Below are positions 7,485 to 27,327 of a DNA stretch of 64,000 bases, in pieces. The number at the start of each line of letters is the position of its first letter. The first letter of the stretch is position 1. The notes below the pieces were generated by a model, which was given only the letters and a program-made list of their open reading frames with translations, was not told the DNA's origin and did no database searches. The stretch lies in assembly GCA_017625255.1 (NCBI GenBank), contig JAGALK010000075.1, positions 1-64,000 on the forward strand. Reading direction: 5' to 3'. A program made the translations under genes and the position numbers. This DNA comes from Lachnospiraceae bacterium (GTDB lineage Bacteria; Bacillota; Clostridia; Lachnospirales; Lachnospiraceae).

Positions 7485-10271
7485 ATGAAAAATATAAACT
7501 GGAAAAAATGCAGTCTTTTTTGTATGATTTTGTTTTTGTTTATAGGCATTGGTCTATTGCATACAGAAACTGCTCATGCAGCTGAAAACCCGATTACGAT
7601 GAAATCCTGTAAATTAAATAGCAGTGGAAAAAAACTGACTATAAAAGCCAAGGTAAAAAAGAAAACAAAGGATATGGGTAATCGGCTATATTTGCTGAGC
7701 CTTGATGCACATACTTCAGAAAGCGGCAAAAAAAAGGCAAAACCATTAGCAAAGGTAAAGACAAAGAAAGGTACAATTACCTATAAGGTGAAATACGACA
7801 GCTCCATGCTGTATCAGAAATTTGTGGTTGCCGGCAAAAAAGGCAGCAAATATAAGATTTTAAGTAATGCCATGTATATTACCAATCCGGAAGTTCTGGC
7901 AACCTATACGGGAACAGGACCAAAAGCGGCTTCAAAAAAGGGATTACAGGTAGAGGAATTATCGGATTCTCTGGAAATTGGAACTAAGCATGCGGTAATT
8001 AACTGGACATTAAATTCTCTTTTAAATAATGATGCCATTCGTAAGATGGAGTATGTCTATAAAGGAAAAACCTATTATCTGGATGCAGATCAGATAAAAA
8101 GGAATGATGAATTGGTTCAGGCATATAATGCAGCAGGTGTACGGGTGACCATTATTTTGCTTTTGCCAAAGGATAATGCTTCCACCGGAACAAAAGCCAT
8201 GCAGTTTGGCGGATATCCTTCCACGAAGTTTTCTTCTGTTAATACCGGAACAAAAGCCGGAGCGCAGACCTTTGAAGCTGTGATGACCTATTTGGCAGAG
8301 CATTATGGAACAAAAGAAAATCTGGTCACAGGATGGATTTTAGGGAATGAGATTAATGCACCCTATATCTGGAATTATGGTGCGAATAAGAAGCTAAGTA
8401 CCTATATCCAAAATTATGCGAGAAGCTTTCGCATCTGCTATAACGCGGTAAAAAGTGTCAATAAAAATGCCAATGTCTATGTAAGCCTGGATTATAACTG
8501 GAATCGGGATTTTGATTCCGGAAACAGATATTTTTCTGCGAAAGCAGTATTAGATAGCTTCTATCAGCAGATAAAAGCACAGGGAAATATTGTTTTCCAG
8601 ATAGCATATCATTCCTATCCACAGGATTTAGGGGATGCCATTTTCTGGGATGATTCCTTAGCGACAAATAGTACCAGCAGTAAAATTATTAATTTTAAAA
8701 ATCTTCAGGTGCTGACAAAGTATGTGAAGAAGAATTTTGGTAAGAAGTATAAGATTATGCTTTCTGAACAGTCCTTTAATTCCAGCAGGGGTGAAGTTGT
8801 TCAGGCAGCCGCCTATGCCTATGCATATTATATGAGCGAAGGCAATGATATGATAGAGGCATTTATTTACGGAAGAGAATTCGATCATCCAGAGGAAATG
8901 AAGGAAGGCTATTACTGGGGCTTATGTGATGTATGGCATGTAAAGAGGCTGGTTTGGAGTGTGTTCCAATACATAGATACCAAGGATTCATTTACTTTTA
9001 CCGATCCACTGCTGTCCTCTACAGGCTTAAGCAGTTGGAGTAAAATCAGTGGATTTAAGAAATCGAAATATACGAAGATGGCAGATACCAAAAATAATGG
9101 AAAAATTACGGAGGTAATACCGATTTCTGCCACATCCGCAAAGATTCAGTGGGAAAAAATGAATACCGGAGACGGATACGAAATATTTAGGAATGGTGAA
9201 GTAATAGCTTCTGTATCGGGCAATTCGACAGTAAGCTATACAGATAAAGGGCTTACACCGGGAGCAGTATATCAGTATCAGGTGCGGATGTATAAGGATG
9301 CACCGGTCAAGGAAAATGCCAATAACCGGATGCGTATATATGGAGGTCTGTCAGGTGTTGCAGAGTATAAAGCGATTCCGGGACAGATAGAGTTGAATAC
9401 GGAGAAATGTGAAATAGCAGGAAATACCATAAAGGTTGTATGGAAAAAGATGGACGGTGTTACAGGGTATGAGGTTCTGCGTTCTACAGCCATAGATGGA
9501 GAATATCTTCCGGTTGCAGTCAAAGAACAAAGCAAATACACCTACAAGGATACGGATGTAGTATCCGGCATGAAATATTTCTATAAAATTCGCGGATATG
9601 TCATCGTAGATGGTGAAACTCTTTATGGAGAGACTTCAGAAGCCTATACAGCGCAGCCGCTGATTCAGCTTACTGCAGAAGTGGCAGATGGAAAAGTGGT
9701 ATTGAGTTGGACGCAATGGCTCTCTGAAATGAGATACCGGGTATATTGTAAAAGTGCAGAAGATACATCCTTTAAAAAGCTTGAAGAGGTTACCGAGTTA
9801 AGCTATACCTGTACCCGATATAAAGATGCTTCAAAAAATTGGTTGGATTTAGAACCGGGAAAAACCTATTGCTTTAGGGTTCGGGTAGAATATGCAGATG
9901 GAACAGCCGATAAGCAGTCGAATACTGTAGAGGTTACGATTCCGCAGGTGACAGTGCCAGAGGGAACAACCCCAGAGGGAACGACTCCAGAGCAAACAAC
10001 TCCAGAGCAAACGACTCCAGAGGGAACAACCTCAGAAGAGACAACTCCAGAGCAAACGACCCCAGAGGGAACGACTCCAGAGGAAACAACCTCAGAAGAG
10101 ACAACTCCAGAGCAAACGACTCCAGAGGGAACAACCTCAGAAGAGACAACTCCAGAGCAAACGACTCCAGAGGAAACAACTCCGGAAGAGACAATTCCAG
10201 AAGGAACGACTCCAGAGGAGGCAACAGAGAAAGAAACAATATCAGCTCAAACGATATCAGAAAATATATAA
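7485..10271 (+). CDS. Secreted DUF5722-like protein with FN3 domains and Pro/Glu/Thr-rich tail
   Basis: The 928-residue protein has a signal peptide (basic start, hydrophobic core 13-27, cleavage near AHAAEN). A lysine-rich beta region (about 35-135) is followed by a TIM-barrel-like domain (about 140-510) resembling DUF5722, which looks glycosidase-like. GWILGNEINAP near residue 286 and MLSEQS near 428 supply Glu residues where retaining glycoside hydrolases carry theirs. About three fibronectin-III-like domains follow (545-640, 645-735, 740-820), then a repetitive PEGTT/PEQTT tail from 825. No LPXTG or C-terminal anchor is present, so it is probably released or held by non-covalent interaction. 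A GGGGCGG ribosome binding site precedes the ATG. Catalytic activity is an inference; the domain has no function I can name with confidence. Confidence 0.75.
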   Translation: MKNINWKKCSLFCMILFLFIGIGLLHTETAHAAENPITMKSCKLNSSGKKLTIKAKVKKKTKDMGNRLYLLSLDAHTSESGKKKAKPLAKVKTKKGTITYKVKYDSSMLYQKFVVAGKKGSKYKILSNAMYITNPEVLATYTGTGPKAASKKGLQVEELSDSLEIGTKHAVINWTLNSLLNNDAIRKMEYVYKGKTYYLDADQIKRNDELVQAYNAAGVRVTIILLLPKDNASTGTKAMQFGGYPSTKFSSVNTGTKAGAQTFEAVMTYLAEHYGTKENLVTGWILGNEINAPYIWNYGANKKLSTYIQNYARSFRICYNAVKSVNKNANVYVSLDYNWNRDFDSGNRYFSAKAVLDSFYQQIKAQGNIVFQIAYHSYPQDLGDAIFWDDSLATNSTSSKIINFKNLQVLTKYVKKNFGKKYKIMLSEQSFNSSRGEVVQAAAYAYAYYMSEGNDMIEAFIYGREFDHPEEMKEGYYWGLCDVWHVKRLVWSVFQYIDTKDSFTFTDPLLSSTGLSSWSKISGFKKSKYTKMADTKNNGKITEVIPISATSAKIQWEKMNTGDGYEIFRNGEVIASVSGNSTVSYTDKGLTPGAVYQYQVRMYKDAPVKENANNRMRIYGGLSGVAEYKAIPGQIELNTEKCEIAGNTIKVVWKKMDGVTGYEVLRSTAIDGEYLPVAVKEQSKYTYKDTDVVSGMKYFYKIRGYVIVDGETLYGETSEAYTAQPLIQLTAEVADGKVVLSWTQWLSEMRYRVYCKSAEDTSFKKLEEVTELSYTCTRYKDASKNWLDLEPGKTYCFRVRVEYADGTADKQSNTVEVTIPQVTVPEGTTPEGTTPEQTTPEQTTPEGTTSEETTPEQTTPEGTTPEETTSEETTPEQTTPEGTTSEETTPEQTTPEETTPEETIPEGTTPEEATEKETISAQTISENI
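9957..10226 (+). repeat. 15-bp tandem coding repeat (PExTT units)
   Basis: About 18 in-frame pentapeptide units (PEGTT, PEQTT, SEETT, PEETT) make up the C-terminal tail of the DUF5722-like protein. Larger blocks of several units recur almost identically, which points to recent slippage or recombination and likely length variation between strains. Confidence 0.9.
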
Positions 10272-12214: not shown

Positions 12215-12268
12215 AAAATGATTTATTAGACCTGATTATATGGTGATATAATGCCAATGGAGGAAAAA

Positions 12269-13228
12269 ATGAAACTGACGGTAATCGTGCCCTGTTATAA
12301 TGAAGAAGCAGCATTGCATTATTTTTATGCAGAGATAGAAAAAGTTATGCAGAATATGCAGGAAGTAGAATTTGAGCTTTTATTTGTCAATGATGGTTCG
12401 AAGGATCAGACTTTAGAAGTTATTCGTGAATTAGCAGCAAAGGATGAACGGGTAAAATATGTTTCTTTTTCCAGAAATTTCGGAAAGGAAGCCGCTATTT
12501 ATGCAGGATTAGAGCACTCTACAGGAGATTTGACAGCGATTATGGATGCCGATTTGCAGGATCCGCCTGCACTTTTGCCGGAAATGTATAAGGCAATTAC
12601 AGAGGAAGGATATGATTCCGTGGCGACGAGAAGAGTGAGCCGAAAAGGAGAGCCTCCGATTCGTTCTTTTTTTGCCAGAATGTTTTATCGTCTGATGAAG
12701 CGTATTTCTAAAGCAGACATTGTAGATGGTGCGAGGGATTATCGCTTGATGAGCAGACCTTTTGTAGATGCTTTATTGGAAATGAGTGAATATAATCGTT
12801 TTTCAAAGGGACTTTTTGGTTGGGTAGGTTTTCGAACCAAATGGCTGGAATATGAAAATATAGAACGAGTGGCAGGAGAGACAAAATGGTCTTTCTGGAA
12901 GTTGTTTTTGTATTCAATTGATGGAATTGTGGCATTTTCCACAATGCCTTTATCTTTAGCAGCGTTATTGGGAGTCGTGATGTGTCTGGTGGCAGCATTA
13001 GCAATTGTGTTTATTGTTGTCAGACAGGTATTGTATGGAGGCTCTGCTTTTGGTTGGCCGTCTATGGTATGTATTACGATATTTTTAGGGGGCATACAGT
13101 TGCTTTGCATGGGAATTTTGGGTTCTTATCTGGCAAAAACTTATCTTGAAGTCAAAAAAAGACCTATTTATATATGCAAGGAAACAAATACTCGCAGGAA
13201 AAACAGAATGGAGATAGAGAATGAGTAA
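12269..13228 (+). CDS. GT2 polyprenyl-phosphate glycosyltransferase (GtrB/DPM1-like)
   Basis: It transfers a sugar from a nucleotide donor to undecaprenyl phosphate at the inner membrane face. The 319-residue protein has a GT-A domain beginning VIVPCYNEE, a metal-binding DADLQDPP near residue 88, and two C-terminal membrane helices (about 228-255 and 265-292), the standard layout of the GtrB/YfdH group. I chose the ATG at 12269 because GGAGG at 12259-12263 is properly spaced for it and homologues start at MKLTVIVP; an upstream in-frame ATG at 12251 lacks such a site. It overlaps the GtrA-like gene by 8 bases; GtrB-GtrA pairs make and flip a lipid-linked sugar used by GT-C enzymes outside. Confidence 0.88.
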   Translation: MKLTVIVPCYNEEAALHYFYAEIEKVMQNMQEVEFELLFVNDGSKDQTLEVIRELAAKDERVKYVSFSRNFGKEAAIYAGLEHSTGDLTAIMDADLQDPPALLPEMYKAITEEGYDSVATRRVSRKGEPPIRSFFARMFYRLMKRISKADIVDGARDYRLMSRPFVDALLEMSEYNRFSKGLFGWVGFRTKWLEYENIERVAGETKWSFWKLFLYSIDGIVAFSTMPLSLAALLGVVMCLVAALAIVFIVVRQVLYGGSAFGWPSMVCITIFLGGIQLLCMGILGSYLAKTYLEVKKRPIYICKETNTRRKNRMEIENE

Positions 13229-13745
13229 AATAATCGATGGATTTTGGTGGCTCGTAGAGCTCATAGCGGGATGGTGCTTAAAAATATTGTTTAAGCTTAT
13301 TCGAAAGGAGCTGACTCCTGAAATCGAAAAAAACTTTCTACAGTTTGTTCGTTTTGGTGTAGTAGGTGTCAGTAATACAATAGTCAGCTATGTGATTTTA
13401 ACTGTCAGTCGTCTGGCATTAGAATCAGCCGGATTTATAAATTACGCCTATATTGTAGCAAATTGTATTGCTTTTGTGCTGGGTGTTGCATGGTCCTTTT
13501 TCTGGAATGACAGATATGTGTTTACGGTAAAAGAAGGGGAACAAAGGTCAATGCTTAAAGCGTTGGTGAAAACCTATATTTCGTATTCCTTTACCGGATT
13601 GTTTTTAAGCAATATCTTACTGCTGCTTTGGATAGAAGTATTCCATATGTCAAAGTTTGTTGCTCCGCTTGTGAATTCTCTGATAGGTTTACCGATTAAC
13701 TTTTTAATTAACAAGTTCTGGTCCTTTAGAAAAGAAGGTAGGTAA
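13221..13745 (+). CDS. GtrA-like lipid-linked sugar flippase
   Basis: The 174-residue protein has four predicted membrane helices in the GtrA family pattern: FVRFGVVGVSNTIVSYVI in the first and VAWSFFWNDRYVF, a conserved family motif, after the second. A ~35-residue basic/amphipathic N-terminal extension precedes the first helix. GtrA proteins are thought to flip undecaprenyl-phosphate sugar across the membrane. It starts inside the end of the GtrB-like gene, so the two are translationally coupled. Confidence 0.88.
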   Translation: MSKIIDGFWWLVELIAGWCLKILFKLIRKELTPEIEKNFLQFVRFGVVGVSNTIVSYVILTVSRLALESAGFINYAYIVANCIAFVLGVAWSFFWNDRYVFTVKEGEQRSMLKALVKTYISYSFTGLFLSNILLLLWIEVFHMSKFVAPLVNSLIGLPINFLINKFWSFRKEGR

Positions 13746-13750
13746 ATAGC

Positions 13751-14785
13751 ATGATAAAGAGTATGGCATTAATTGCAGTTGTTCTTGGGGTACTTCCCTT
13801 TCTATTAGGAATGCTTTATACGAAATTTGTGGATGAAGAAAAAAACAATCTTCTGCTGCAGTTGGCAGGGGGATATGTGCTGATGCTTGGTATATTTGAA
13901 CTGGTGGCATTGCCATTAATCTGGCTTAGAGGTTCTTTGAATCTGCTGACAGGCATATATGGCGGAAGTATACTGGTGTTAGCAGGGATATCCATAATAC
14001 TTAACGGGAAAAGAATTTTACAGGTGATAACCGATACTTTTCTGGCAGTGCGTGAATTTACGCTTTGTATATGGGCACAGCTTGCATTAATAGCCGGACA
14101 GGTTATTTTCTATATAAAATATCAGTATTCTAATGCAGATGATGCTTTTTTTGTGGCAGCGGCTACAACGGCAATAGAAACAAATAGTATCATAGCCTAC
14201 AATCCTTATACGGGAACTGCCTATGAGAGTTTGCCGTCTAGATATGTTTTGTCACCGCTATATGGATTCAATGCAGTGCTAAGCAAGGTGACGGATACTC
14301 ATCCGGCAATTATGGCACATATGATATTCATGTTGGTGTTTCTGCTGTTAGCTTATGCCGTATTTGCATTAATTGGACGGGCATTATTTGCTAAAAATAT
14401 GGAAAAGACAGGGTATTTTTTAATTATGATATCCGTATTACATCTGTTTGCTGCGTATAGTGAGAGGACAAGCGGATTAGTGCTGTTGATTCGTCTTTGG
14501 CAGGGAAAGGCAATTCTTGCAGGAGTACTTTTGCCAATGATTTTATATCTTGCCATTCGGATTTTCCTATTGGAAGGAAAACTGGCTGATTGGATACTCT
14601 TATTTTTCTTAATGTGCGCCTGCTGTATGGTATCTTCCATGGGTATTATGTTAGGTGCAATTATGGTTGGTATTTTAGGGCTTTTATTTGCATGGAAGCA
14701 TAAGAATATCCGGATATTGCTGTTGCTGGCATTTTGTTGTCTGCCGAATCTGCTTTGTGCAGGAATTTATCTGGTGATTAGGTAG
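13751..14785 (+). CDS. Polytopic membrane protein, probable N-terminal half of a GT-C-like/DUF6077-type protein
   Basis: The 344-residue protein consists of about nine hydrophobic helices. After helix 4 the loop NADDAFFVAAATTAIETNSI near residue 130 resembles the acidic first extracytoplasmic loop of GT-C-type enzymes. It starts 5 bases after gtrA. It ends abruptly after a helix (LCAGIYLVIR), and the next gene opens with helices that would continue such a membrane domain, so the two may be halves of one ancestral protein. GT-C enzymes use lipid-phosphate sugars of the kind the two preceding genes would supply. Activity and the DUF6077 assignment are inferences. Confidence 0.6.
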   Translation: MIKSMALIAVVLGVLPFLLGMLYTKFVDEEKNNLLLQLAGGYVLMLGIFELVALPLIWLRGSLNLLTGIYGGSILVLAGISIILNGKRILQVITDTFLAVREFTLCIWAQLALIAGQVIFYIKYQYSNADDAFFVAAATTAIETNSIIAYNPYTGTAYESLPSRYVLSPLYGFNAVLSKVTDTHPAIMAHMIFMLVFLLLAYAVFALIGRALFAKNMEKTGYFLIMISVLHLFAAYSERTSGLVLLIRLWQGKAILAGVLLPMILYLAIRIFLLEGKLADWILLFFLMCACCMVSSMGIMLGAIMVGILGLLFAWKHKNIRILLLLAFCCLPNLLCAGIYLVIR

Positions 14786-14796
14786 GGAGGTATATT

Positions 14797-16386
14797 TTGA
14801 GAGAAACTTTTGATTTTGTGATTTCAATGTACGATACCTACAATGGTACGGGTATGCATATGGCACTCTTTTTTGCCTGTTTGATTTATCTGATTGTGCA
14901 GAAAAAGGAAAAAGATAAACGATATCTGTTTTTGGGATATACCCTATTATTTTTTATCCTTTGCTTTTTCCCTATAACGGCAAAGGTGATTCTTTCCTGT
15001 GTAGGTCAGGAAGTGTACTGGAGAATGTTCTGGCTTTTGCCAATGACGGTTGTCATAGCCTATACTGCAGTACAGATATTGATGCAGATGGAGACTAAGG
15101 GCAAACGCTATGGAATGCTTGGCCTGCTGCTGGTAATGATTGTGATGACGGGGACATTTACTTATAATGAAACCATTTTTGCACCCAAACAGAACAATTA
15201 TAAATTGCCGGGAGATACTATTGAAATCTGTGATGCCATCGAGGCGGATGCTGCGCTAAATGGCATTGAAACAAAAAAGCTTTTAACAGTAAATGAATTA
15301 TTGACTACGATAAGACAATATGATGCTAGTATCTTAATGCCTTATGGAAATGAGGTTATAAAGGGGAATAAAGCAGAAACGGAAAATGCCGCTTGTCTTT
15401 TTAGGTTGATGAGCAGGGAAATAAAGAATTGGGAAGCTATCTGTTGGTATGCAGGTATGGAAAATTGTAATTATATTGCCTATCCAAAGGATGATGCTGT
15501 AACAGAAACGCTTGCCGGATTAGATTTTGCCAAGGTTTCTGAAACAACAAACTATGCCATATATCGAAGAGAATATGGAGTAAAAAGCTACGACGATAAG
15601 TGGCTGATTACTCAGTATGGTGGTGCGGATGGTGCACAGCTAAGCTTTTATACCCTGCAGAATAATAAAGGAAATTTAATTGTCGTAGACGGCGGTTGGG
15701 AAAGCGATGCTTCCTATATGCGAAAGGTTTTAAAAGGGCTTGGGAATCATGTGGATGCTTGGATTATTACTCATCCGCATAGAGATCACGCCGGAGCTTT
15801 TTGCAAGATTTATAAAAAGCCGAAAAATCTGACGATTGATAAAGTCTATGCCGTAGATGTCGGTGATTTGCAGAGGCATTTAGAGAATCCCACAGAGGAT
15901 GAAGAAGAAATCTGCCAAAAGTGGTTTGAAATGGAGATACCACAGCTTACCTATGTACATGCAAAGGATAGCTTTGAAGTGGCAGGATTGAAATTTGAGG
16001 TATTTAATGCCTATGATGCGTATGTAGAAGAAATGTCCGATAAACTTTTAAATGACGGTTCGATGATGTTTAAGGTGACTGCAAAGGAAGAGTCCATGCT
16101 GTTTTGTGCAGATGTAGGTGAAGCAATGAGTGATTATTTGTTAGACACCTATGGTGATGCTTTAAAAGCAGAATATATCCAGATGGGACATCATGGCAAT
16201 GGAGGCTTAAAGAAGGATTTTTATGATTTCATTGATGCAAAGGTAGCATTCTTTGATGCACCGGACTGGCTGATGAATGATACAACCGGAGCTTACACGA
16301 CTCCGGACAACCGATACTTTATGACAATAAATGGAGTGGCGGTTTACAGCTTTTCGACCACGCCAAACCAGATTATATTAAAATAA
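14797..16386 (+). CDS. Membrane protein fused to an exported metallo-beta-lactamase-fold domain
   Basis: The 529-residue protein has about four N-terminal helices (residues 20-125), a ~140-residue extracytoplasmic-type linker region, then a metallo-beta-lactamase domain from about 270 to the end. The zinc motif THPHRDHAG (His326, His328, Asp330, His331) is complete, with Asp439 in FCADVGEA and His465-His466 in GHHGNGG as further ligands. This most resembles the hydrolase domain of ComEC-type proteins, but no competence domain is present. The start is a TTG at 14797 with GGGAGG at 14785-14790. Given the helix number, the domain probably faces outside, where it might cleave a phosphodiester in a glycan; teichoic acid phosphorylcholine esterase has this fold. 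Substrate unknown. Confidence 0.75.
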   Translation: MRETFDFVISMYDTYNGTGMHMALFFACLIYLIVQKKEKDKRYLFLGYTLLFFILCFFPITAKVILSCVGQEVYWRMFWLLPMTVVIAYTAVQILMQMETKGKRYGMLGLLLVMIVMTGTFTYNETIFAPKQNNYKLPGDTIEICDAIEADAALNGIETKKLLTVNELLTTIRQYDASILMPYGNEVIKGNKAETENAACLFRLMSREIKNWEAICWYAGMENCNYIAYPKDDAVTETLAGLDFAKVSETTNYAIYRREYGVKSYDDKWLITQYGGADGAQLSFYTLQNNKGNLIVVDGGWESDASYMRKVLKGLGNHVDAWIITHPHRDHAGAFCKIYKKPKNLTIDKVYAVDVGDLQRHLENPTEDEEEICQKWFEMEIPQLTYVHAKDSFEVAGLKFEVFNAYDAYVEEMSDKLLNDGSMMFKVTAKEESMLFCADVGEAMSDYLLDTYGDALKAEYIQMGHHGNGGLKKDFYDFIDAKVAFFDAPDWLMNDTTGAYTTPDNRYFMTINGVAVYSFSTTPNQIILK

Positions 16387-16404: not shown

Positions 16405-18198
16405 ATGTTACATGGAACAATCTTTGGAACAATTTTATATTTTGCAGCAACTGTATTTTGTGTGACAAATGTATATTTGTTCCGCAAATCCCATAAAGCG
16501 ATGAATGGATTTTTATGGATACTTTTATCCTATATTATTACAATCTGCATGGGAAGCGTTGTGGCAGGAATTATGACACCTGTGCATATACCGGTCAATA
16601 TCTATACAATGTCGGTGGTGTATTTACTGCTTGGCGGAGCGTTTTTCTATGCCTGCAAAAAAGAAGGGAAACGACAGGAATATGTGTGGGAAAAGTATGA
16701 TTTTATTGCAATTACATTAGTGACTGTAGCTCTTTTGGCAATTTTCTTAAATATTTTCACATTGGATTTACAGTATTATTATTATAATAGTGATGCAGGC
16801 TGTCATTTGAAGGAAGCGACACAGATCGTCCGTTCACAAACGGTATTTAATATGTATTTCTTACATTTGCAGAATGCAATGATTATCGAAATGGTTCAGC
16901 CGTTTGTAAGAATTGCAGACTGGTATAAAGGCTATATCCTTGCGGATTGCTTCTTTGTATGGATAGAAACCTTATTCTTTGTAGCATTGATTCGCCGTTT
17001 TGCGAAAACAACAGCAGCAAAGGTGTTTTCTTTGATTATCACAGTAGCGTATTTTATGGGATATCCGTTTTTTGGATTCTATTATTCCTTTACCTACTGG
17101 GGCGCAGGTGGAATGCTGGTAGCCTTTTTGCTGATTACTCTTTGGCTTTATGAGGAAGCTTTGGTGGAGCGAAAATATAGTACTTTTATGCTGATGTTAG
17201 GCTGCTTTGGTGTAATTACCTGTTATATGTTATTTGCACCGGTAACCTTTGTGGCGGTTCTTGCTTATCTTATGATTGTGGCAAGACGAGAAGGCAAGGT
17301 GTTTACAAAGAAAAATGTGCTGTTGGCATTAAAGGTATTTTTAATTCCATCTGTGATGGGTATATATTATTGCTTCTTTGGATTTTTTGTAAATTCCGGT
17401 ACAAGTGTTACGGATGCATTAGGAAATCAGGGAGGTATTTATACCGAGCTGTATATGGATTTCTTCTGGACGATTTTGCCGGTACTCTTTGTAGTGGTGT
17501 ATACTTTGAAAAAGAAACGGCTGACACCACAGGTGGTGTTCTTTGGCGCATTTTTCTGTTTTACAGGCGGAATGCTTCTGCTGACACTGACACATCATGT
17601 GTCTACCTATTATTATTACAAGACCTATTATCCACTGTGGATGCTCTGCTGGGTATTAACAGCTCAGGCGGTTTCAATTATGCTAAAGGAGGCAAAGGAG
17701 GTATTAATTGCCTACTGTATGATGATTGCCATGTTTGCGGTAATGTGCTTTGGGCATATCGAGTATCGAATTGTAACCTCCAGAGAAAAGATTACAGGGG
17801 CTATGCATAGTCCTGCATATTTTACACTGTTTCAGAATAACTGGTCATTTATTACCAGAGAGCATATCGGACTAGATGAATCCATTATGGATTTATATCA
17901 GGTCGTAGCGGATGAGCTTTCTGAAGAAAAAATGGTGCCGCTTATGACAGAAACAAACGATTATGGGGCAACCTATTTTTATGAAGGTATCAGCGGTTAT
18001 GATTTTCCGGATTTCTATGAGTGGAGACATACCGATGAAGAATTGATACAGGCGTATTATGACTGGGATGTGGAGTATACAGTTATGTTAAAGGGTACGC
18101 AGTTTGAAAAAGAGCATGGAGAAAAGACTTTAGCCCATGAGGCAGTAAGTATTTTCTTTGAAAATGAAGCGGGATATATCTTAAAGTTAGAGTATTAA
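16405..18198 (+). CDS. Large polytopic membrane protein of the polysaccharide operon (GT-C or polymerase candidate)
   Basis: The 597-residue protein has about twelve membrane helices in the first ~470 residues and a ~110-residue soluble C-terminus (from about SREKITGAMH). The loop YNSDAGCHLKEATQIVRS near residue 130 carries the acidic residues expected in the first outer loop of GT-C glycosyltransferases. The repertoire of the operon lacks any other obvious Wzy-type polymerase, so this is the best candidate for a polymerase or extracytoplasmic glycosyltransferase. GGGAG precedes the ATG; it follows the preceding gene by 18 bases. No closer family assignment is possible by eye. Confidence 0.6.
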   Translation: MLHGTIFGTILYFAATVFCVTNVYLFRKSHKAMNGFLWILLSYIITICMGSVVAGIMTPVHIPVNIYTMSVVYLLLGGAFFYACKKEGKRQEYVWEKYDFIAITLVTVALLAIFLNIFTLDLQYYYYNSDAGCHLKEATQIVRSQTVFNMYFLHLQNAMIIEMVQPFVRIADWYKGYILADCFFVWIETLFFVALIRRFAKTTAAKVFSLIITVAYFMGYPFFGFYYSFTYWGAGGMLVAFLLITLWLYEEALVERKYSTFMLMLGCFGVITCYMLFAPVTFVAVLAYLMIVARREGKVFTKKNVLLALKVFLIPSVMGIYYCFFGFFVNSGTSVTDALGNQGGIYTELYMDFFWTILPVLFVVVYTLKKKRLTPQVVFFGAFFCFTGGMLLLTLTHHVSTYYYYKTYYPLWMLCWVLTAQAVSIMLKEAKEVLIAYCMMIAMFAVMCFGHIEYRIVTSREKITGAMHSPAYFTLFQNNWSFITREHIGLDESIMDLYQVVADELSEEKMVPLMTETNDYGATYFYEGISGYDFPDFYEWRHTDEELIQAYYDWDVEYTVMLKGTQFEKEHGEKTLAHEAVSIFFENEAGYILKLEY

Positions 18199-18220: not shown

Positions 18221-20101
18221 ATGTTAGTAAATGAAGATATAGAGTTAAGACGGTTAGCAGATAGTGAAAAAAAGAAGATATCAGCAGATTTAGGTGATTT
18301 TGCGAAGTTTTTGGCATATACCAATGACGATGGAGTGGATGATGTACCGCAAGAACCGCCAAGAACGGGGATTCGTAAACTGAAAGGTACGCCTGTGTGG
18401 ACTTTGATTTATCCGGCAAGAATGGGCTATCGTGCGGCGAGATTTGTCTATCAAAACGGTGCATCGGGGATTTATCGCCGAGTGGAAAATAAAGTAAAGC
18501 ATGCTATGGATGAAAATCCTTATGCTAAAAAGAAACGGGCAAGAGAATTTTTGACGAAAATTATGCCGACAGAGGAAGAAAAGCAAAAGCAAAAAGAACG
18601 CATTTTTGAAAAAGATATCAAAATCAGTGTGCTCGTACCATTATATAATACGCCGGAGAAATTCCTGCGGGACATGATTACCTCTGTAACCGGACAAACC
18701 TATCAAAACTGGGAATTATGCTTAGCAGATGCTTCAGACGACAGTCATCCTCAGGTGGCAGATATCGTCAAAGAATATGCAGATGCAGACAGCCGTATTG
18801 TATATAAAAAGTTAGAGAATAATGCAGGAATTGCAGAAAATACCAATGCGTGTATCAAAATGGCAAGCGGTAATTATCTGGCACTTTTTGACCATGATGA
18901 TATGCTGCATCCATGTGCACTTTATGAGTGCGCAAAGGTAATTGAAAAGGAAGATGCAGAATTTGTCTATACGGATGAAGCGACCTTTGAAGGAGACAAT
19001 ATAGAAAATATCATTACCTTGCATTTTAAACCGGATTTTTCTGTGGATAATCTGCGGGGAGTCAATTATATCTGTCATTTAAGTGTATTTAAAAAAGCAC
19101 TTGTGGACGAGGTTGGAATGTTTCGTGCGGAATATGACGGAAGTCAGGATCATGATATTATCATGCGGCTTACGGATGCGGCAAAGAAGGTGTGCCATAT
19201 TCCAAGCGTGCTGTATTTCTGGCGCTGTCATCAGATGTCTACCTCTATGAATATTGATGCTAAGTCCTATGCCATTGAAGCCGGAAGAAAGGCTGTTGCA
19301 GATGCGGAGAAACGAAGAGGCTATCCTGCAAAGGTATATAGTGCACAGATTTGTAAAACCCATTATCGTATGAAATATGAGATTGAAAATCCGCTGATTA
19401 CGATTTTAATTGATGGAACCCATACGAAAAAGGAACGGGCAGCATATACGGTAGCAGCAATTGAAAATCGCTCTACATACAGCAATTATGAAATTCGTTA
19501 TGGAAAAACACAGGCAGAATTACAGGAAGAGATGCAAAAAGCAAAAGGAGAATATATACTATTGTTTGCAGCAGGAGCATTGCCTGTGACACCAACCTGG
19601 ATAGAGGAATTGCTGATGTTTGCCCAAAGAAGCGATGTAGGAATGGCTGCCATGCAGGTGTTAGACGAGAAGGACTTTATTTTAAGCTCTGACCTTGTAC
19701 ATGGTATGAGCGCAGATCGTCTGGCGATTGAAGTGAATCGCGGAGAACGGTATGATGCAACCGGCTATATGGGAAGAAACTATTATGCACATAATGTATC
19801 TGCCATTTCCGGCTGTGCCTGTCTGGCAAAAAAAGAGATTTTCACAGGTCTTTGGGAGGATTGTCATACCAAGTCTGTTTTTGGCAAGGTGTTAGAGCTG
19901 TGCTTTAAGCTTCGCAAAGAAGAAAAGCAGATTGTAGTCAATCCGTATGCCTTGTGCAAGCTTGCAAAGGCAGATTTTCCGGTAAATCTGTCAGCCTCAG
20001 ATCGTGAAATTCTCATGCAAAATTATGACAGACAGATTCAGGCAGGAGATGCATTTTATAATAAAAATCTGTCTTTTGAAAGACGCTGGCAGAAGAAATA
20101 G
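18221..20101 (+). CDS. Two-domain GT2 glycosyltransferase, N-terminal domain active-looking
   Basis: The 626-residue protein has a ~125-residue leader with basic helices, then a GT-A domain starting ISVLVPLYNTPEKFL, with LADASDDSH as the nucleotide-binding stretch and LFDHDDMLHP (about residue 222) as the DXD-type metal site. A second region from about residue 390 (PLITILIDG..) has the same overall fold pattern but no DXD and no catalytic base motif, so it looks degenerate. The end (AFYNKNLSFERRW) matches the C-terminal signature of RgpI-like polysaccharide GTs. No membrane helices are seen; it acts in the cytoplasm on the lipid-linked chain. Donor and acceptor cannot be told. Confidence 0.82.
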   Translation: MLVNEDIELRRLADSEKKKISADLGDFAKFLAYTNDDGVDDVPQEPPRTGIRKLKGTPVWTLIYPARMGYRAARFVYQNGASGIYRRVENKVKHAMDENPYAKKKRAREFLTKIMPTEEEKQKQKERIFEKDIKISVLVPLYNTPEKFLRDMITSVTGQTYQNWELCLADASDDSHPQVADIVKEYADADSRIVYKKLENNAGIAENTNACIKMASGNYLALFDHDDMLHPCALYECAKVIEKEDAEFVYTDEATFEGDNIENIITLHFKPDFSVDNLRGVNYICHLSVFKKALVDEVGMFRAEYDGSQDHDIIMRLTDAAKKVCHIPSVLYFWRCHQMSTSMNIDAKSYAIEAGRKAVADAEKRRGYPAKVYSAQICKTHYRMKYEIENPLITILIDGTHTKKERAAYTVAAIENRSTYSNYEIRYGKTQAELQEEMQKAKGEYILLFAAGALPVTPTWIEELLMFAQRSDVGMAAMQVLDEKDFILSSDLVHGMSADRLAIEVNRGERYDATGYMGRNYYAHNVSAISGCACLAKKEIFTGLWEDCHTKSVFGKVLELCFKLRKEEKQIVVNPYALCKLAKADFPVNLSASDREILMQNYDRQIQAGDAFYNKNLSFERRWQKK

Positions 20102-20110
20102 AGGATAAGT

Positions 20111-21835
20111 ATGTTAAGTGATTTTGATTTAGAAGGCAAGAATAAGCTGCAAAAAGCAGTCTATTATCTAAGATATTATGGGATGTCTTATACGGCAAAA
20201 AAAGCGTTGCGAAAAATCGGCGTCCCCATTAGCGAAGAATCGGAGTATATGACATGGTGCCGCCGTATGGCAGCGACCAAAGCAGAATTAAAGCAGCAAA
20301 AGGAATCCGAAAAAGCGAAAAAAATCCCATTTACGATTGTACTTGAAGCAGAAGAAAGCGCAGAAGCAGCAGGCTGGAAAAAACAGACCTGCAGTAATGT
20401 GTCTGTTGTAAATATTTTAAAAGGTATGTCCTTAGCAGAGCTTTTAAAAGAAGTAAACGGTGAATATGTGGTGTTTTCCGGCAAAGATATAAAGGCTGCA
20501 CCGGAATATCTGTATGAAATTACAAAATGTATTACAGAGCCTCAGCCAAAGGGTGAAAGTAAGGTGCGCATTTATCCGCAGGAAACACCGGATGTCATTT
20601 ATACGGATGAAGATAATTGCGTAGGCAAAAAAAGAATACGGCCATTTTTTAAGCCGGACATGAGTAAGAATATGCTTTTGAACTTTCAGTATATGGGTCG
20701 ATGCTTTGTGGTTAAGCGCAGTCTTTTAGAGATAATAGCAGAAAATAAAGAATTAGAGCTTAGCGGAAATGATTGGTATGACATAGCATTACAGGCATTT
20801 TACTATGCAAAGCATGTTCGTCATATTCCAAAGGTGCTCTTTTCTAATAAAGTGACCGAAGAGACAAAAACAGAGTTTGTTCGCGCAAAGGATGGCAAAG
20901 GAGAAGAGTGTATCCGCCGATATCTAAAAACTGCCCAAATGAAAGGAAAGGTCATCAAATCCGATGTGGCAGGCTTTTATCATGTGGAAATGGAGCTTGA
21001 TAAAGAGCCTTTAGTAAGCATTATTATTCCAAATAAGGATCATATAGAGGATTTGAAGCTTTGTCTGGATTCTTTACGGGAAAAAAGTGATTATACGAAT
21101 TATGAAGTGATTATTGCAGAAAATAATAGTGAAAAAGAGGAAACCTTTGCCTATTATGAGAAGCTGCAAAAAGAAGATGCTAAAATCCGTGTGGTTACAT
21201 GGAAAGGAATTTTCAACTACTCAGCTATCAATAACTTTGCAGTAAAAGAAGCAAAGGGCGAAATTTTGCTGTTTTTAAATAATGATACAGAATTTATGGA
21301 TGCTAAAACCTTGCGTGAGCTTGTGACATCTACGATGAAGTCTGGTGTAGGAGCAGCAGGAGCTATGCTTTATTATGGGGATGAAACCATTCAGCATGGC
21401 GGAATTATTATGGGAATGGGTGGTTTTGCAGCCCATGCACTCTGGAGTCTTACAGACAGGGATGAGAAGTATTATCCGTTTTCTCTTTGCGAAAGAGAGG
21501 TCAGTGGCTGTACCGGAGCATGTCTGATGGTAAGAAGAAATGTATTCGAAGAAATAGGTCAGATGGATAAAGATTTTGTCGTGGCACTAAACGATGTGGA
21601 TTTGTGTATGAAAATCCGTGCAGCAGGCTATGAGATTATTTTCAATCCATATGCAAGATTATATCATTATGAATCTAAGTCCAGAGGCTATGAGGATACA
21701 ATGGAAAAACAGGCAAGATTCCAAAGGGAGATTGCAAATTTCCAGTCAAAATGGGAAAATGAAATTACAGAAAAAGATCCCTATTATAATCCGAATCTGA
21801 CACTGCATCGTGCAGATTATTCTATGGATATTTAA
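20111..21835 (+). CDS. Two-domain GT2 glycosyltransferase, C-terminal domain active-looking
   Basis: The 574-residue protein follows the previous gene by 9 bases. Residues ~65-280 look like a worn GT-A domain: DVIYTDEDN is recognisable but the N-terminal nucleotide-binding strand (VLEAEESAEAAG) is not. Residues ~295-530 form a convincing GT2 domain: VSIIIPNKDHIEDLK, VIIAENNSE, LLFLNNDTEFM as the DXD equivalent, and GCTGACLMVRR further on. It ends DPYYNPNLTLH, the same tail signature as its neighbours. It is the mirror image of the preceding gene, whose first domain is intact. A cytoplasmic sugar transferase is likely; specificity unknown. Confidence 0.82.
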   Translation: MLSDFDLEGKNKLQKAVYYLRYYGMSYTAKKALRKIGVPISEESEYMTWCRRMAATKAELKQQKESEKAKKIPFTIVLEAEESAEAAGWKKQTCSNVSVVNILKGMSLAELLKEVNGEYVVFSGKDIKAAPEYLYEITKCITEPQPKGESKVRIYPQETPDVIYTDEDNCVGKKRIRPFFKPDMSKNMLLNFQYMGRCFVVKRSLLEIIAENKELELSGNDWYDIALQAFYYAKHVRHIPKVLFSNKVTEETKTEFVRAKDGKGEECIRRYLKTAQMKGKVIKSDVAGFYHVEMELDKEPLVSIIIPNKDHIEDLKLCLDSLREKSDYTNYEVIIAENNSEKEETFAYYEKLQKEDAKIRVVTWKGIFNYSAINNFAVKEAKGEILLFLNNDTEFMDAKTLRELVTSTMKSGVGAAGAMLYYGDETIQHGGIIMGMGGFAAHALWSLTDRDEKYYPFSLCEREVSGCTGACLMVRRNVFEEIGQMDKDFVVALNDVDLCMKIRAAGYEIIFNPYARLYHYESKSRGYEDTMEKQARFQREIANFQSKWENEITEKDPYYNPNLTLHRADYSMDI

Positions 21836-21861
21836 GGATATCTAAAAAGAAGGGAACTTTC

Positions 21862-23100
21862 ATGAAGAAAAAATCGACATTGGCAAATATATTTTATAAC
21901 AGCTTTGGGACTATGTTTTTTTATGGCTGTCAATGGCTGACAACGATTTTGGTTGTACGGCTTTCGGGGTTTGAGGATGGAGGAAATTATTCTCTGGCGA
22001 TGACCTTTACAGCGGCATTTTCCATACTTGCCCTGTTTAATACCAGACAATATCAGGTGTCAGATGTGACAGGAGAATATTCAGAACAGACCTATATTAA
22101 GTCTCGGTTTATTGCTATGGCAATTGCGTTTTTAGTCTGCTTTTTCGCCATGTTATTTAATGATTATACACCGTATCAGTGGGGCGTTATTCTGCTATAT
22201 ATGGTTTATAAATGTGCAGAGGCATGGATTGATGTTTATCATGGTGTTGACCAGAAAAATGGCAGAATGGACTATGTCTGCTATTCCTATATTGCCAGAA
22301 GTATCTTAATGATGGCAGGCTTCTGTGGTGTTTTGTATTTGACAAAGAATCTGGTATATGCCATTGCTGCATTGGCACTAACCACATTTTTGGTTGCCGT
22401 TGTATTTGATAAGAGAATGGCAGAAAAGTTTATTCCATCCAAAGATACTACAGATATGGCAGCTATCAAAAAACTAATGCTTGCCATGGTACCACTTGTC
22501 ATTGTGGCAGTAACGAATAATCTTTCTATTTCATTGCCGAAGTATTTTCTGGAAAGATATTATGATGCAACAGTGCTTGGCTATTATTCCTCAGTGGCTA
22601 CGCCAAGTATGATTGTACAGGTAGGAGCAAATACCATCTTTATTCCATTGATTACACCGTTAGCGGATTGTCTGGCAGCGAATGATAAAAAAGGATTTAT
22701 GAATATTTTAAAGAAGGTAGCCATTGTATTTGCGGGGTTATCCGTATTGGCATTAATTGTTTCTGCATGGCTTGGAGAATGGTTTTTAGTACTGTTTTTC
22801 AAAGAGGAAATTCGTCCGTACACTTATTTATTTGTACCGATTATTGTATCTACATTGCTGATTAGCATTAATGCATGCCTGTTCCCGGTTTGTACGGTTC
22901 TTCGGGAAATTAAGGGGCAGCTTGCTATTGGTATCAGCGGAATTTTATCATCATGGATTGCTTCTATGATATTTGTAAAAAGATATGGAATGGATGGAGT
23001 TGTAATTGCCCTGTTGATTACCTTGGGCATTCAGATTATAATAGAATTATATTGTGTATATCACAAGATGAAAAAATGGAGGATAACCAATCATGGATAA
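21862..23100 (+). CDS. Wzx-type oligosaccharide flippase
   Basis: The 412-residue protein has about 12 hydrophobic helices with the pattern of the polysaccharide-transport (MOP/PST) family. It begins with a short basic N-terminus and the GTMFFYGCQWLTTILVVRL helix, and has AEAWIDVYHGVDQKNGRMDYV between helices 4 and 5. It moves undecaprenyl-diphosphate-linked repeat units to the outer face. A GAAGGGAA ribosome binding site precedes the ATG. The start of the next GT2 gene overlaps its end by 8 bases. With a flippase but no ABC transporter in the cluster, a Wzx-dependent route is indicated. Confidence 0.88.
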   Translation: MKKKSTLANIFYNSFGTMFFYGCQWLTTILVVRLSGFEDGGNYSLAMTFTAAFSILALFNTRQYQVSDVTGEYSEQTYIKSRFIAMAIAFLVCFFAMLFNDYTPYQWGVILLYMVYKCAEAWIDVYHGVDQKNGRMDYVCYSYIARSILMMAGFCGVLYLTKNLVYAIAALALTTFLVAVVFDKRMAEKFIPSKDTTDMAAIKKLMLAMVPLVIVAVTNNLSISLPKYFLERYYDATVLGYYSSVATPSMIVQVGANTIFIPLITPLADCLAANDKKGFMNILKKVAIVFAGLSVLALIVSAWLGEWFLVLFFKEEIRPYTYLFVPIIVSTLLISINACLFPVCTVLREIKGQLAIGISGILSSWIASMIFVKRYGMDGVVIALLITLGIQIIIELYCVYHKMKKWRITNHG

Positions 23101-24034
23101 GATTGCGGTATTAATTCCCTGCTACAATGAAAGCAGGACAATTAAGAAGGTTGTAGAGGATTTTAAAAGAGTATTGCCGGAAGCGGTGATTTATGTATAT
23201 GACAATAATTCTACCGATGGAACAGATAAAATTGCAAAAGAAGCAGGAGCTATTGTTCGCTATGAGTATCAGCAGGGAAAAGGCAATGTTATTCGTCGGA
23301 TGTTTAGGGATGTGGATGCAGAATGCTATATTATGACAGACGGGGATGATACTTATCCTGCAGAAGCTGCCCTAGATTTGATTCGTCCAATTTTTGAGAA
23401 AAATGCAGATATGGTGGTAGGAGACAGATTATCCTCTACTTATTTTACAGAAAATAAAAGGGCATTCCATAACTTTGGAAATTCTTTGGTAAGAAAGAGT
23501 ATTAATACTTTATTTGAGACAGATATTAAGGATATGATGACAGGATACCGTGCATTTAATTATCTGTTTGTAAAATCCTTCCCTGTACTTTCTAAAGGCT
23601 TTGAAATTGAAACAGAAATGAGTATTCATGCAGCCGATAAAAATATGCAGGTAGAAAATGTGGTTATCGAATATCGTGACCGACCGGAAGGAAGTGTATC
23701 AAAGCTTAATACATTTTCCGATGGATTCCGTGTGCTGCGGACAATTGCAAGAATGTATCAGACCTACAAACCGATGAGCTTCTTTGGTATTTTGTCTACG
23801 GTTTTGGCAGTATTGGCAGTTGGTTTTATGGTTCCGGTATTGATTCAGTATACAAAAACCGGATTGGTGGGACATTTCCCGACACTGATTGTATGCGGAT
23901 TTACGATGTTGGCAGCTATTCAGGCGTTTTTCTCCGGTTTGATTTTAAAGACTATTGGACAGAAAAATCGTCAGGATTTTGAAATGTCACTTCAGACTTT
24001 GAAAGCACAAATGAGAAAACTTTTAGAGGATTAA
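23093..24034 (+). CDS. GT2 glycosyltransferase, DPM1-like, with C-terminal membrane helices
   Basis: The 313-residue protein begins IAVLIPCYNESRTI and has YDNNSTDGTD and the metal motif TDGDDTYPAE near residue 84, followed by MTGYRAFN typical of dolichyl-phosphate-mannose-synthase-like enzymes. Two helices at about 225-250 and 262-285 anchor it. It is a second polyprenyl-phosphate sugar synthase besides the GtrB-like enzyme at the start of the operon, suggesting two different lipid-phosphate sugars are made. It overlaps the flippase gene by 8 bases. Confidence 0.85.
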   Translation: MDKIAVLIPCYNESRTIKKVVEDFKRVLPEAVIYVYDNNSTDGTDKIAKEAGAIVRYEYQQGKGNVIRRMFRDVDAECYIMTDGDDTYPAEAALDLIRPIFEKNADMVVGDRLSSTYFTENKRAFHNFGNSLVRKSINTLFETDIKDMMTGYRAFNYLFVKSFPVLSKGFEIETEMSIHAADKNMQVENVVIEYRDRPEGSVSKLNTFSDGFRVLRTIARMYQTYKPMSFFGILSTVLAVLAVGFMVPVLIQYTKTGLVGHFPTLIVCGFTMLAAIQAFFSGLILKTIGQKNRQDFEMSLQTLKAQMRKLLED

Positions 24035-24246: not shown

Positions 24247-25656
24247 ATGTATAAAAGGGAAAAGAAAAGCTGGCTAAAGCATTTGGATTTTACAATTTTA
24301 GATATGCTTTGTATGCAGGCGGCATTTATTATCGCCTATGTACTGCGTCTTGGCTGGCAGCTTCCATATGCGAGTGATCCTTATGAGCGATTGGCAGTTA
24401 TCATGATTTTGATTGATATCTGCGTGGTTTTCTTTTTTGAACCTTATAATGGAATATTGCGGCGGGGAAACCTGCAGGAAGGAAATTCTTCTGTTACATT
24501 TTGTACGATGATTTTTGCAGGAATTCTTGTGTATGAGGTTGCAACAAAACAGACCGAGATTTACTCGCGAAAAATTATATTTGCATATTGGCTGATTTCC
24601 ATTGTACTCGTCTATTTTGCGAGAATTGGATTAAAACAGTTTATCCGCAGAAGGATGAAAAGTGAAAAAAATCTTTCTGTGATGATTCTTTTAACTACAG
24701 CGGAATATGCCAAAGAAGCGTTGCTTGAGTTTGCAAATCTGCCATATCGGGATTTTACCGTAGCAGGTGTGATTGTTGTGGATGAAACTCTAAAAGGAGC
24801 AAGAATCTGTGGTGTGCCGGTGGTGGCGAATGCAGACGATTGCTATGAATATTTAAAAACCCATGTGGTGGATGAAGTATTCATTAATGGAAATACCCGT
24901 GCAAGCTCCGAGGCTTTGGCAAATGAGCTGTTGGAAATGGGTATTACCGTGCATTTTAATCTGGTGCACATGAATACACTTGGACCAAACAAGGTTGTAG
25001 AAAAGTATGGTAATTATTTAGTACTTACATCCAGTATGAAGATTGCTTCACCCAGACAGCTTTTTGCCAAGCGTTTAATGGATATTGTTGGCAGTCTGAT
25101 AGGACTGATTGCCTGTGGAATTGCATTTGTTATTTTTGCACCGCTGATAAAAAAACAGTCTCCGGGACCTGTATTCTTTTCGCAGACCAGAGTAGGCAAA
25201 AATGGCAGAAAGTTTAAGCTGTATAAGTTTCGCTCCATGAATGTGGATGCAGAGGAGCAAAAAGCAGCCCTGATGGATCAAAATGAAATGTCCGGGCTGA
25301 TGTTTAAAATCGCAGATGACCCGAGAATCTTTCCAATCGGTAAGATTATGCGGAAGTTTTCCATTGATGAGCTGCCGCAGTTTTTTAATGTCTTAAAGGG
25401 GGATATGAGTCTTGTAGGGACAAGACCTCCGACTGTTGAGGAATTTGAAGAATATCAGATTCATCATAAAGCAAGACTTGGCATCAAGCCGGGAATCACC
25501 GGTATGTGGCAGGTCAGCGGCCGCAGTGATATCAAAGATTTTGAAGAAGTGGTAGCCTTAGATACCCATTATATTTCCCAGTGGAGTATTGGATTGGATT
25601 TTAAGATTTTAGCGAAGACTTTACAGGTAGTAATTACCGGAAAGGGTTCAGAATAG
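24247..25656 (+). CDS. Initiating undecaprenyl-phosphate sugar-1-phosphate transferase (WbaP/CpsE type)
   Basis: It starts repeat-unit assembly by moving a sugar-1-phosphate onto undecaprenyl phosphate. The 469-residue protein has four N-terminal helices (about 15-125), a Rossmann-like CoA-binding_3 region (140-260), a re-entrant helix near 280 and the bacterial sugar transferase domain (about 275-465). Hallmarks are KLYKFRSMNVDAE, SIDELPQFFNVLKGDMSLVGTRPP and the late GITGMWQVSGR. Length and layout are normal for polyisoprenyl-phosphate hexose-1-phosphate transferases. In this operon the initiating enzyme comes in the middle rather than at the front. Confidence 0.93.
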   Translation: MYKREKKSWLKHLDFTILDMLCMQAAFIIAYVLRLGWQLPYASDPYERLAVIMILIDICVVFFFEPYNGILRRGNLQEGNSSVTFCTMIFAGILVYEVATKQTEIYSRKIIFAYWLISIVLVYFARIGLKQFIRRRMKSEKNLSVMILLTTAEYAKEALLEFANLPYRDFTVAGVIVVDETLKGARICGVPVVANADDCYEYLKTHVVDEVFINGNTRASSEALANELLEMGITVHFNLVHMNTLGPNKVVEKYGNYLVLTSSMKIASPRQLFAKRLMDIVGSLIGLIACGIAFVIFAPLIKKQSPGPVFFSQTRVGKNGRKFKLYKFRSMNVDAEEQKAALMDQNEMSGLMFKIADDPRIFPIGKIMRKFSIDELPQFFNVLKGDMSLVGTRPPTVEEFEEYQIHHKARLGIKPGITGMWQVSGRSDIKDFEEVVALDTHYISQWSIGLDFKILAKTLQVVITGKGSE

Positions 25657-25662
25657 AACGAA

Positions 25663-27327
25663 ATGAATATCAGATATAAATATCGTTATGTGACAGGCCT
25701 CTTGAAGCGTTATGGCTTTCGGGGGCTTGTTTTAAAAACAATAGAACGGATGCAGTCACCGATGTTAGCATACAGCAATAAATATATGCAGTATATGCCA
25801 ACGGAGGAGGAACTAAAAAAACAAAGAGAAAGTCTGCCAAAATATGCCCCTTTAGTCAGTATCGTTATACCGACCTATGAAACACCGGAAAACTATCTGA
25901 GGGAGCTTATAGATTCCCTGCTTGTACAGTCCTATCCGAATTGGGAGCTATGCCTTGCCGATGGAAGCAAAACGGATGGGGTAAGTCGTGTGGCAGAAAA
26001 ATATCAAAAAGCAGACAAAAGAATCCGTTATCAGAAATTAGAAAAAAATGGCGGCATCTCAGAAAATACCAATGGCGGGTTTGCCATGGTAAAAGGGGAA
26101 TTTGTAGCGTTGATGGATCATGATGATTTACTGACACCAAATGCTCTCTATGAGATGGTAAATGCATTAAATACACAGTATACGGTCGATGAAAGAACTA
26201 TGGCAATGATTTATTCGGATGAGGATAAGATTAACGGAGATGGAACTGTGCACAGCCGTCCGCATTTTAAGCCGGGTTATAATCCGCAGTTTCTTTACCA
26301 TAATAATTATTTTTGCCATTTTCTTTTGTTTTCTGCGAAATTATTAGAGCAGACAAAGGGTCTGAAAAAAGAATATGATGGTGCGCAGGATTATGATTTT
26401 GTACTCCGCTGCGTAGAAGCAGGAGCGATTGTGCGGCATGTACCAAAGATTTTGTATCACTGGAGAATACATGAGGGCTCTACAGCGGGAAACAGTGCGG
26501 ATAAAGCCTATGCCTTTGATAATGGCTGTCGGGCAATTGAAGCTCATCTGAATCGAATTGGCGAATCAGCAAAAGCAAGAGTTACCACCAACTTAGGGGT
26601 ATATCAGGTGACCTATGATTTAAAGGGAATCTATCGTATCGTGATTGCTGCTGAAAAAGAGGAGCATTTGCATCAGATACAAAGCTGGTATGGAACTTCT
26701 TATCATAAGGATGACTATATTTTTGAATTGACATATTCAAAAGTTAAGCAGTTAGATAATCATGTAATGGAAAGTGCAGAGGGAGACTATATTTTTTATC
26801 TGACTAAGGATATTATTTTAAAGGATAAAAATATATTAGAAACCATGCTTCGTTACCTGCAGCATGAAAAAACAGCAGTTGTGGGAAGTAAGATTTTAGA
26901 TACCAGAAAACAGGTGGCATCCTGTGGATATATCTATAGACAGGATGGCGAGATACTGCCGGCATTTAAAGGACTTCGTGCAGAGTTCAAAGGCTATTTT
27001 TTACATGCAGTGATTCCACAGAATGTCAGCGTAGTAGATTTTTCCTGTGTGATGTTAAAAAAATTGGCATGGGAGAAAACGGCGGGATTTTCTGAAGAAT
27101 TTGTGGAATTGTACAAGGCTGCGGATTATTGTTTTCAGGTGGATAATGCTGGATTTGAGGTTGTAGTTACACCGGAGAGTACAGTTGTTTCACGAAAAAA
27201 ACAGAGCAAAACAGACAGCCCCGAGGAATTTTATCATCGTTGGAAAGAGAAACTTAAGCAGCCGGACGGTTGCTACAATCCGAATCTGACATTAGAATAT
27301 AAGGATTCATACAGAATGAAGGAATAG
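25663..27327 (+). CDS. Two-domain GT2 glycosyltransferase, N-terminal domain active-looking
   Basis: The 554-residue protein has a GT-A domain from about residue 65 (VSIVIPTYETPENY), with CLADGSKTDG and the metal motif LMDHDDLLTP near 148, and HWRIHEGSTAG near 267. From about 325 a second GT2-like region lacks DXD (YIFYLTKDIILKD in its place) and appears non-catalytic. The tail GCYNPNLTLEYK matches the other two-domain GTs. The ribosome binding site is weak, and the start lies 6 bases after the preceding stop, so translational coupling is likely. Closest in plan to the gene at 18221. Confidence 0.82.
   Translation: MNIRYKYRYVTGLLKRYGFRGLVLKTIERMQSPMLAYSNKYMQYMPTEEELKKQRESLPKYAPLVSIVIPTYETPENYLRELIDSLLVQSYPNWELCLADGSKTDGVSRVAEKYQKADKRIRYQKLEKNGGISENTNGGFAMVKGEFVALMDHDDLLTPNALYEMVNALNTQYTVDERTMAMIYSDEDKINGDGTVHSRPHFKPGYNPQFLYHNNYFCHFLLFSAKLLEQTKGLKKEYDGAQDYDFVLRCVEAGAIVRHVPKILYHWRIHEGSTAGNSADKAYAFDNGCRAIEAHLNRIGESAKARVTTNLGVYQVTYDLKGIYRIVIAAEKEEHLHQIQSWYGTSYHKDDYIFELTYSKVKQLDNHVMESAEGDYIFYLTKDIILKDKNILETMLRYLQHEKTAVVGSKILDTRKQVASCGYIYRQDGEILPAFKGLRAEFKGYFLHAVIPQNVSVVDFSCVMLKKLAWEKTAGFSEEFVELYKAADYCFQVDNAGFEVVVTPESTVVSRKKQSKTDSPEEFYHRWKEKLKQPDGCYNPNLTLEYKDSYRMKE

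Follow-up and report, generated by a model that had tools for sequence, protein, structure and literature searches.

Why would a gene in a glycan-assembly operon encode a membrane domain and a complete metallo-beta-lactamase (MBL) domain on one polypeptide, and on what would such a hydrolase act? The question is raised by P0001, a 529-amino-acid protein of Lachnospiraceae bacterium GCA_017625255.1, encoded on contig JAGALK010000075.1, of which positions 1-64,000 of the forward strand constitute the window analyzed here (Table 1). An earlier note on this DNA had read the protein as the end of a DUF6077/GT-C-like membrane protein joined, outside of the membrane, to an MBL fold, and had cited teichoic acid phosphorylcholine esterase (Pce) as making a glycan phosphodiesterase, for trimming or release of a substituent, plausible. 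Its coordinates for the open reading frame, 14797-16386, and the residues that it named were correct when checked by position. The 529 codons begin with TTG downstream of a GGGAGG Shine-Dalgarno sequence, and homologs of P0001 keep the same start position.

Table 1. Features of the window that bear on the fusion protein P0001.
Feature	Position	Strand	Remarks
GT2, PgfS/undecaprenyl-phosphate (Und-P) sugar synthase type	12251-13228	+	
GtrA-family membrane protein, candidate Und-P-sugar flippase	13221-13745	+	PF04138, E 2.2e-20
First half of split DUF6077 GT-C-like protein	13751-14785	+	PF19554 profile covered over 2-353 of 354, E 1.6e-100; DD motif in large outer loop
Fusion protein P0001, 529 aa	14797-16386	+	MBL domain joined to the second half of the split DUF6077 GT-C-like protein
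P0001 residues 1-258, C-terminal half of DUF6077	14797-15570	+	Predicted four TM helices and extracytoplasmic alpha/beta domain (hydropathy, homologs, loop charges)
P0001 residues 262-529, MBL domain of ComEC/Pce type	15580-16386	+	Full HxHxDH site
Second large membrane protein, GT-C-like layout, 597 aa	16405-18198	+	Neighbor of the fusion, conserved within the near clade
Two GT2 glycosyltransferases and Wzx/Polysacc_synt flippase	18221-23100	+	
AglJ-like GT2	23093-24034	+	
WbaP-type initiating sugar-1-phosphate transferase	24247-25656	+	
GT2	25663-27327	+	
LytR-CpsA-Psr ligase	29323-30483	+	Attaches glycopolymer to peptidoglycan

The operon surrounding the fusion

In addition to the genes listed in Table 1, the operon encodes wall amidases and glucosaminidases, and its product is likely a glycopolymer attached to peptidoglycan. 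No Pfam or NCBIfam match was obtained for the 16405-18198 protein. When DUF6077 is taken as a GT-C enzyme, an Und-P-sugar GT2, GtrA, and a GT-C enzyme lie side by side (12251-13228, 13221-13745, and 13751-16386), and the PgfS-like GT2, GtrA, and DUF6077 fit the three-component glycosylation scheme reviewed previously (PMC8035078). Upstream of the operon, and conserved in near relatives, is a gene (7485-10271) for a protein with DUF5722 and fn3 regions and a long TPEGTTPEETTPEQ-type tail. A membrane protein of the sulfatase/LtaS superfamily, with the phosphoglycerol transferase GacH as its best PDB match (E 1.6e-20), is encoded at 917-2761, about 12 kb upstream of the fusion; an IS110-type transposase in two open reading frames (3238-3897 and 3920-4549) lies between the two.

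A DUF6077 enzyme encoded in two parts

In many Lachnospiraceae, homologs of P0001 residues 1-258 that are about 260 amino acids in length and lack the MBL domain are encoded directly after a DUF6077 first half (pairs in L024, L025, L041-L043, L070, L071, L073, L077, L080, and L081). Single-chain forms with both halves in one open reading frame are found in L044 (697 aa) and L078 (627 aa). The standalone second halves and the single-chain forms therefore show that the membrane domain of P0001 is the second part of a DUF6077 protein divided between two genes, which sharpens its earlier description as the end of a DUF6077/GT-C-like protein. A sequencing frameshift was ruled out as the source of the split because two-gene pairs recur in many genomes with the same breakpoint and because P0001 has a ribosome-binding site of its own.

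The fold of the complete enzyme was approached with a model of the L044 chain (mean pLDDT 62, with second-half rows misplaced in the input alignment), which was used only for the single-chain GT-C reading. The first 28 structures matched by this model were all GT-C enzymes (Z 6.8-11.9), including OST, AftA, AglB, PglB, ArnT, PMT, and DPY19, and the first unrelated structure followed at 6.7; the top three Foldseek matches were also GT-C enzymes, with weak E-values. Z scores are inflated for helical membrane proteins. For this reason, and because the model is of middling quality, these matches support a GT-C fold strongly but do not amount to proof. DUF6077, for which a literature search gave no hit, is thus probably a GT-C-like enzyme that is frequently encoded by two genes, and the 13751-14785 product and P0001 would together form one GT-C-type glycosyltransferase made as two polypeptides.

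In L104, L107, and L068, a single glycan locus contains two DUF6077 pairs in tandem, of which one carries the MBL domain and the other does not. MT837007.1, an unannotated 8-kb phage record from human feces that may be bacterial DNA, also encodes, at positions 3484-4215, a product that matches the DUF6077 second half at 27%. A phage origin was ruled out, given that this record matches the DUF6077 half only; no relatives of the MBL domain were found in IMG/VR.

The MBL domain and its closest relatives

The MBL domain was recognized by Pfam as Lactamase_B (E 2e-9), and the metal-site residues H326, H328, D330, H331, D439, H465, and H466 are present, as is N419. Across the 35 relatives compared, no variation was seen at H326, D330, H331, N419, D439, H465, H466, or G467; H328 is kept in 34, the exception being a ComEC-type protein with Asp. 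The HxHxDH motif (326-331), Asp439, and His465/466 had been called intact in the earlier note, and they are so at each position. Comparison with the nearest relative, L033, yielded a dN/dS of about 0.07 for the MBL domain (0.114/1.62), which is therefore under purifying selection, and of about 0.06 for the N-terminal part.

Among solved structures, the full P0001 model (pLDDT 77) best matched the ComEC MBL (9ic4; Z 22.5, rmsd 3.0, 241 residues aligned), followed by Pce (1wra, Z 20.8, rmsd 2.9, 246 aligned; 2bib, Z 20.4, rmsd 3.4, 250 aligned), after which scores dropped to Z 17.3. A relatedness to Pce is thus borne out, second only to that to ComEC. A profile of 22 relatives gave E 1.5e-10 to 9ic4 and 2e-9 to CbpE. 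The C-terminal domain of ComEC is a Mn-dependent phosphodiesterase whose closest solved relative is Pce (PMC8579336, PMC12455585). A phosphodiesterase activity is suggested for P0001 because both of its closest solved relatives, ComEC and Pce, have this activity. The MBL fold spans many hydrolases, and the structures matched include a sulfatase (8gyg), such that the domain could instead cleave a non-phosphate bond of the glycan, for example in a lactone, ester, amide, or sulfate ester, or could only bind. This is considered unlikely, since the two phosphodiesterases stand clear of all other matches (Z 20.4-22.5 versus 17.3) and a metal site so fully conserved speaks against a role in binding alone.

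Relative to Pce, ComEC has Asp in place of a motif II His and Asn in place of the motif III His (PMC8579336), and substitution of Ser728 in its HHGS motif reduces nuclease activity (PMC12455585). Motif II of P0001 (HPHRDH) is of the Pce type and its motif III residue, N419, is of the ComEC type. In all 30 close members, the motif II His is kept and the position of ComEC Ser728 is occupied by Asn (HHGN). A WD..Y segment that follows motif II is common to Pce and most relatives; P0001 has E367 and C373 rather than W367 and Y373, a substitution that may reflect an altered substrate pocket. This mixture of motifs therefore places the MBL domain of P0001 in neither the ComEC nor the Pce family.

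These motifs also bear on whether the domain is a relocated ComEC-type nuclease acting at the cell surface to break down extracellular DNA or RNA. Such a role would accord with ComEC as the best match in both fold and sequence and with the shared motif III Asn, but motif II is HxHxDH rather than the HxDxDH of ComEC, the Ser728 equivalent is Asn in every close member, OB and channel domains are lacking, a ComEC is encoded elsewhere in the genome, and fused copies reside in glycan rather than competence loci. A nuclease is accordingly regarded as very unlikely. That P0001 is a remnant of ComEC was ruled out: as the earlier note had it, no competence domain is present (no Pfam match to PF03772), the motifs differ (HxHxDH and HHGN), and the genome's own ComEC (807 aa) is encoded on another contig (G000:C28). 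In the seven fused genomes tested, ComEC was likewise found on contigs other than that of the fusion. The genome of P0001 also encodes a separate, exported ComEC-like MBL protein of 345 amino acids with an HPDADH motif (L002:1258-2295).

Location of the hydrolase

As read by eye, nearly all standalone MBL homologs have a signal peptide or anchor at the N-terminus, and in two of them the MBL domain is preceded by wall-binding-type repeats (L008) or by SLH-like and fn3 regions (L018), also identified by eye. In 25 homologs of the membrane half, Lys and Arg residues averaged 4.1 in the loop at 35-42, 3.3 at 97-105, and 0.64 at 66-75; the positive-inside rule therefore puts the segment that follows the fourth helix outside. 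In one protein (L079:7829-10216), a DUF6077 second half is joined to a long array of extracellular-type repeats, of the YYDENGxP type, in place of the MBL domain, at the same attachment point; this suggests that the C-terminus of the second half serves generally as a site for attaching extracellular modules. Exported standalone homologs, loop charges, membrane architecture, and the repeats of L079 together place the MBL domain outside of the membrane, where helix counting had put it in the earlier note, and on these sequence-based lines an extracytoplasmic location is very probable.

Distribution and context of fused and standalone copies

Fused copies were detected in 11 of 397 Lachnospiraceae genomes (E<=1e-40), with more divergent ones in G200 and G083, and the MBL part (residues ~262-529) occurs as a standalone protein in many genomes. 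Context was scored only where the surroundings were readable, and L065 was left out owing to a contig that is too short. With that scope, fused copies have glycan or wall genes around them (L037/L038, L064, L066-L069, L101-L105, and L107), like P0001 itself, which agrees with its earlier placement in a glycan-assembly operon. Context is thinnest in L103, with wall hydrolases and one GT2, and in L105, where the neighbors are a GT2 and a protein related to that of 16405-18198. The surroundings of standalone MBL genes vary and are not confined to glycan operons. GtrA is near about 4 of 13 fused copies and, in other fused lineages, is frequently not adjacent, and it was rejected as a constant neighbor of the fusion. 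Thus, of the idea that homologs always accompany GtrA, GT2, and Wzx genes, the association of fused copies with glycan and wall loci stands; constant company of GtrA does not, nor does the pattern extend to standalone MBL genes.

A phosphate-substituent gene (sulfatase/GacH type, LicD, or TagF type) was not found as a constant neighbor of the fused copies, occurring only sporadically: besides the GacH-like gene of the window, TagF-like genes lie within about 9 kb in G659 and at about 19 kb in G661, and LicD lies about 15 kb away in G200. None of six other fused genomes tested had a GacH-like gene near the fusion, and most other fused copies had no phosphate-substituent gene nearby; the neighborhoods thus do not point consistently to one substrate.

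On bootstrap trees of the MBL domain, the fusion label changes 5-7 times, with at least three changes forced; gain and loss are not distinguished as to direction. These observations bear on whether the fusion is a passive joining of genes, with both parts acting as they do when alone. Both modules are standalone in many genomes, and a near relative (L007) has an unfused MBL gene inside a glycan locus, as passive joining would allow. It is nevertheless judged improbable, given that the fused state recurs and that strong purifying selection persists on the fused protein.

A putative glycosyltransferase with an attached phosphodiesterase

About an even chance is assigned to the reading that the locus encodes a split GT-C enzyme belonging to a PgfS/GtrA-type system, with an attached extracytoplasmic phosphodiesterase whose target is the glycan being glycosylated or the lipid-linked donor of that glycan. 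The adjacent PgfS-like GT2, GtrA, and split GT-C would form a three-component system, in which the GT-C enzyme, on the outer side of the membrane, would transfer a sugar carried by undecaprenyl phosphate to a wall polymer. The MBL domain, held on the outer face directly after the GT-C extracytoplasmic domain, is predicted to bind two metals via HxHxDH, D439, and H465/466 and would most likely act by hydrolyzing a phosphodiester, whether in this wall polymer, in a substituent of the polymer, or in its lipid-linked donor. Tethering would bring transfer and trimming to the same spot. From fold, location, and partner, we infer the phosphodiesterase activity, substrate, and functional coupling of the MBL domain, for which a glycan-trimming function is plausible.

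A more specific proposal is put forward tentatively, and is less likely than not to be correct: P0001 may belong to a self-editing bifunctional glycosyltransferase in which the GT-C half adds a sugar outside of the membrane and the covalently attached MBL domain removes or cuts a phosphodiester of that glycan or of the donor, thereby setting the level of decoration or chain length, with an MBL family that is neither ComEC nor Pce having been built repeatedly into wall-polymer assembly in Lachnospiraceae.

Another possibility is that, at the GT-C site, the MBL domain hydrolyzes the Und-P-sugar donor itself or an Und-PP intermediate that has stalled, whereby carrier would be recycled or wrong donors edited. 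An Und-P-sugar is a phosphodiester, the domain sits on an enzyme expected to bind this donor on the outer face, and Bacillus subtilis has the carrier-freeing hydrolases UshA and UpsH (PMC11898649). Those enzymes, however, are cytoplasmic and of other folds, and most MBL homologs are exported on their own, in some cases with wall-binding-type repeats, so that a wall or soluble substrate fits them better than a membrane lipid; hydrolysis of donor or intermediate is thus deemed rather improbable. For the preferred reading of a GT-C enzyme with a phosphodiesterase acting on the same glycan or donor, the fusion offers a handle on an uncharacterized exported MBL family of gut Lachnospiraceae: the GT-C partner indicates where these MBL proteins act and narrows the likely substrate to a glycan or its carrier.

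Comparison with known systems

Pce/CbpE (PDB 1wra, 2bib, and 12qj) share with P0001 the MBL fold, the HxHxDH form of motif II, an extracellular location and, across the family, the WD..Y segment. Identity to Pce is about 15%, however, and P0001 differs in having no choline-binding repeats, an Asn in motif III, loss of the W and Y of the segment, and a fused GT-C half. The C-terminal MBL of ComEC (PDB 9ic4) shares the motif III Asn, the DGG, N, D, and HHG motifs, and a position at the extracellular end of a membrane protein; P0001, in contrast, has HxHxDH rather than HxDxDH and HHGN rather than HHGS, is encoded in a glycan operon, and is without the OB fold or Competence channel.

At the level of the operon, CsbB/GtcA/YfhO, GacI/GacK/GacL, and GtrB/GtrA/GT-C likewise combine an Und-P-sugar GT2, GtrA, and a large GT-C-like enzyme near wall-polymer genes, whereas in the window the putative GT-C enzyme is DUF6077, is encoded by two genes, and has a hydrolase at its C-terminus. 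No title or abstract in the literature searched described a fusion of GT-C and MBL domains, and no GT-C enzyme with a hydrolase joined to it was found there; carbohydrate-binding additions are known. GT136 ORF12 and Emb/AftD with a CBM (PMC11127046) resemble P0001 in that a GT-C enzyme bears an additional module outside of the membrane, but their modules bind carbohydrate, whereas that of P0001 is a predicted hydrolase.
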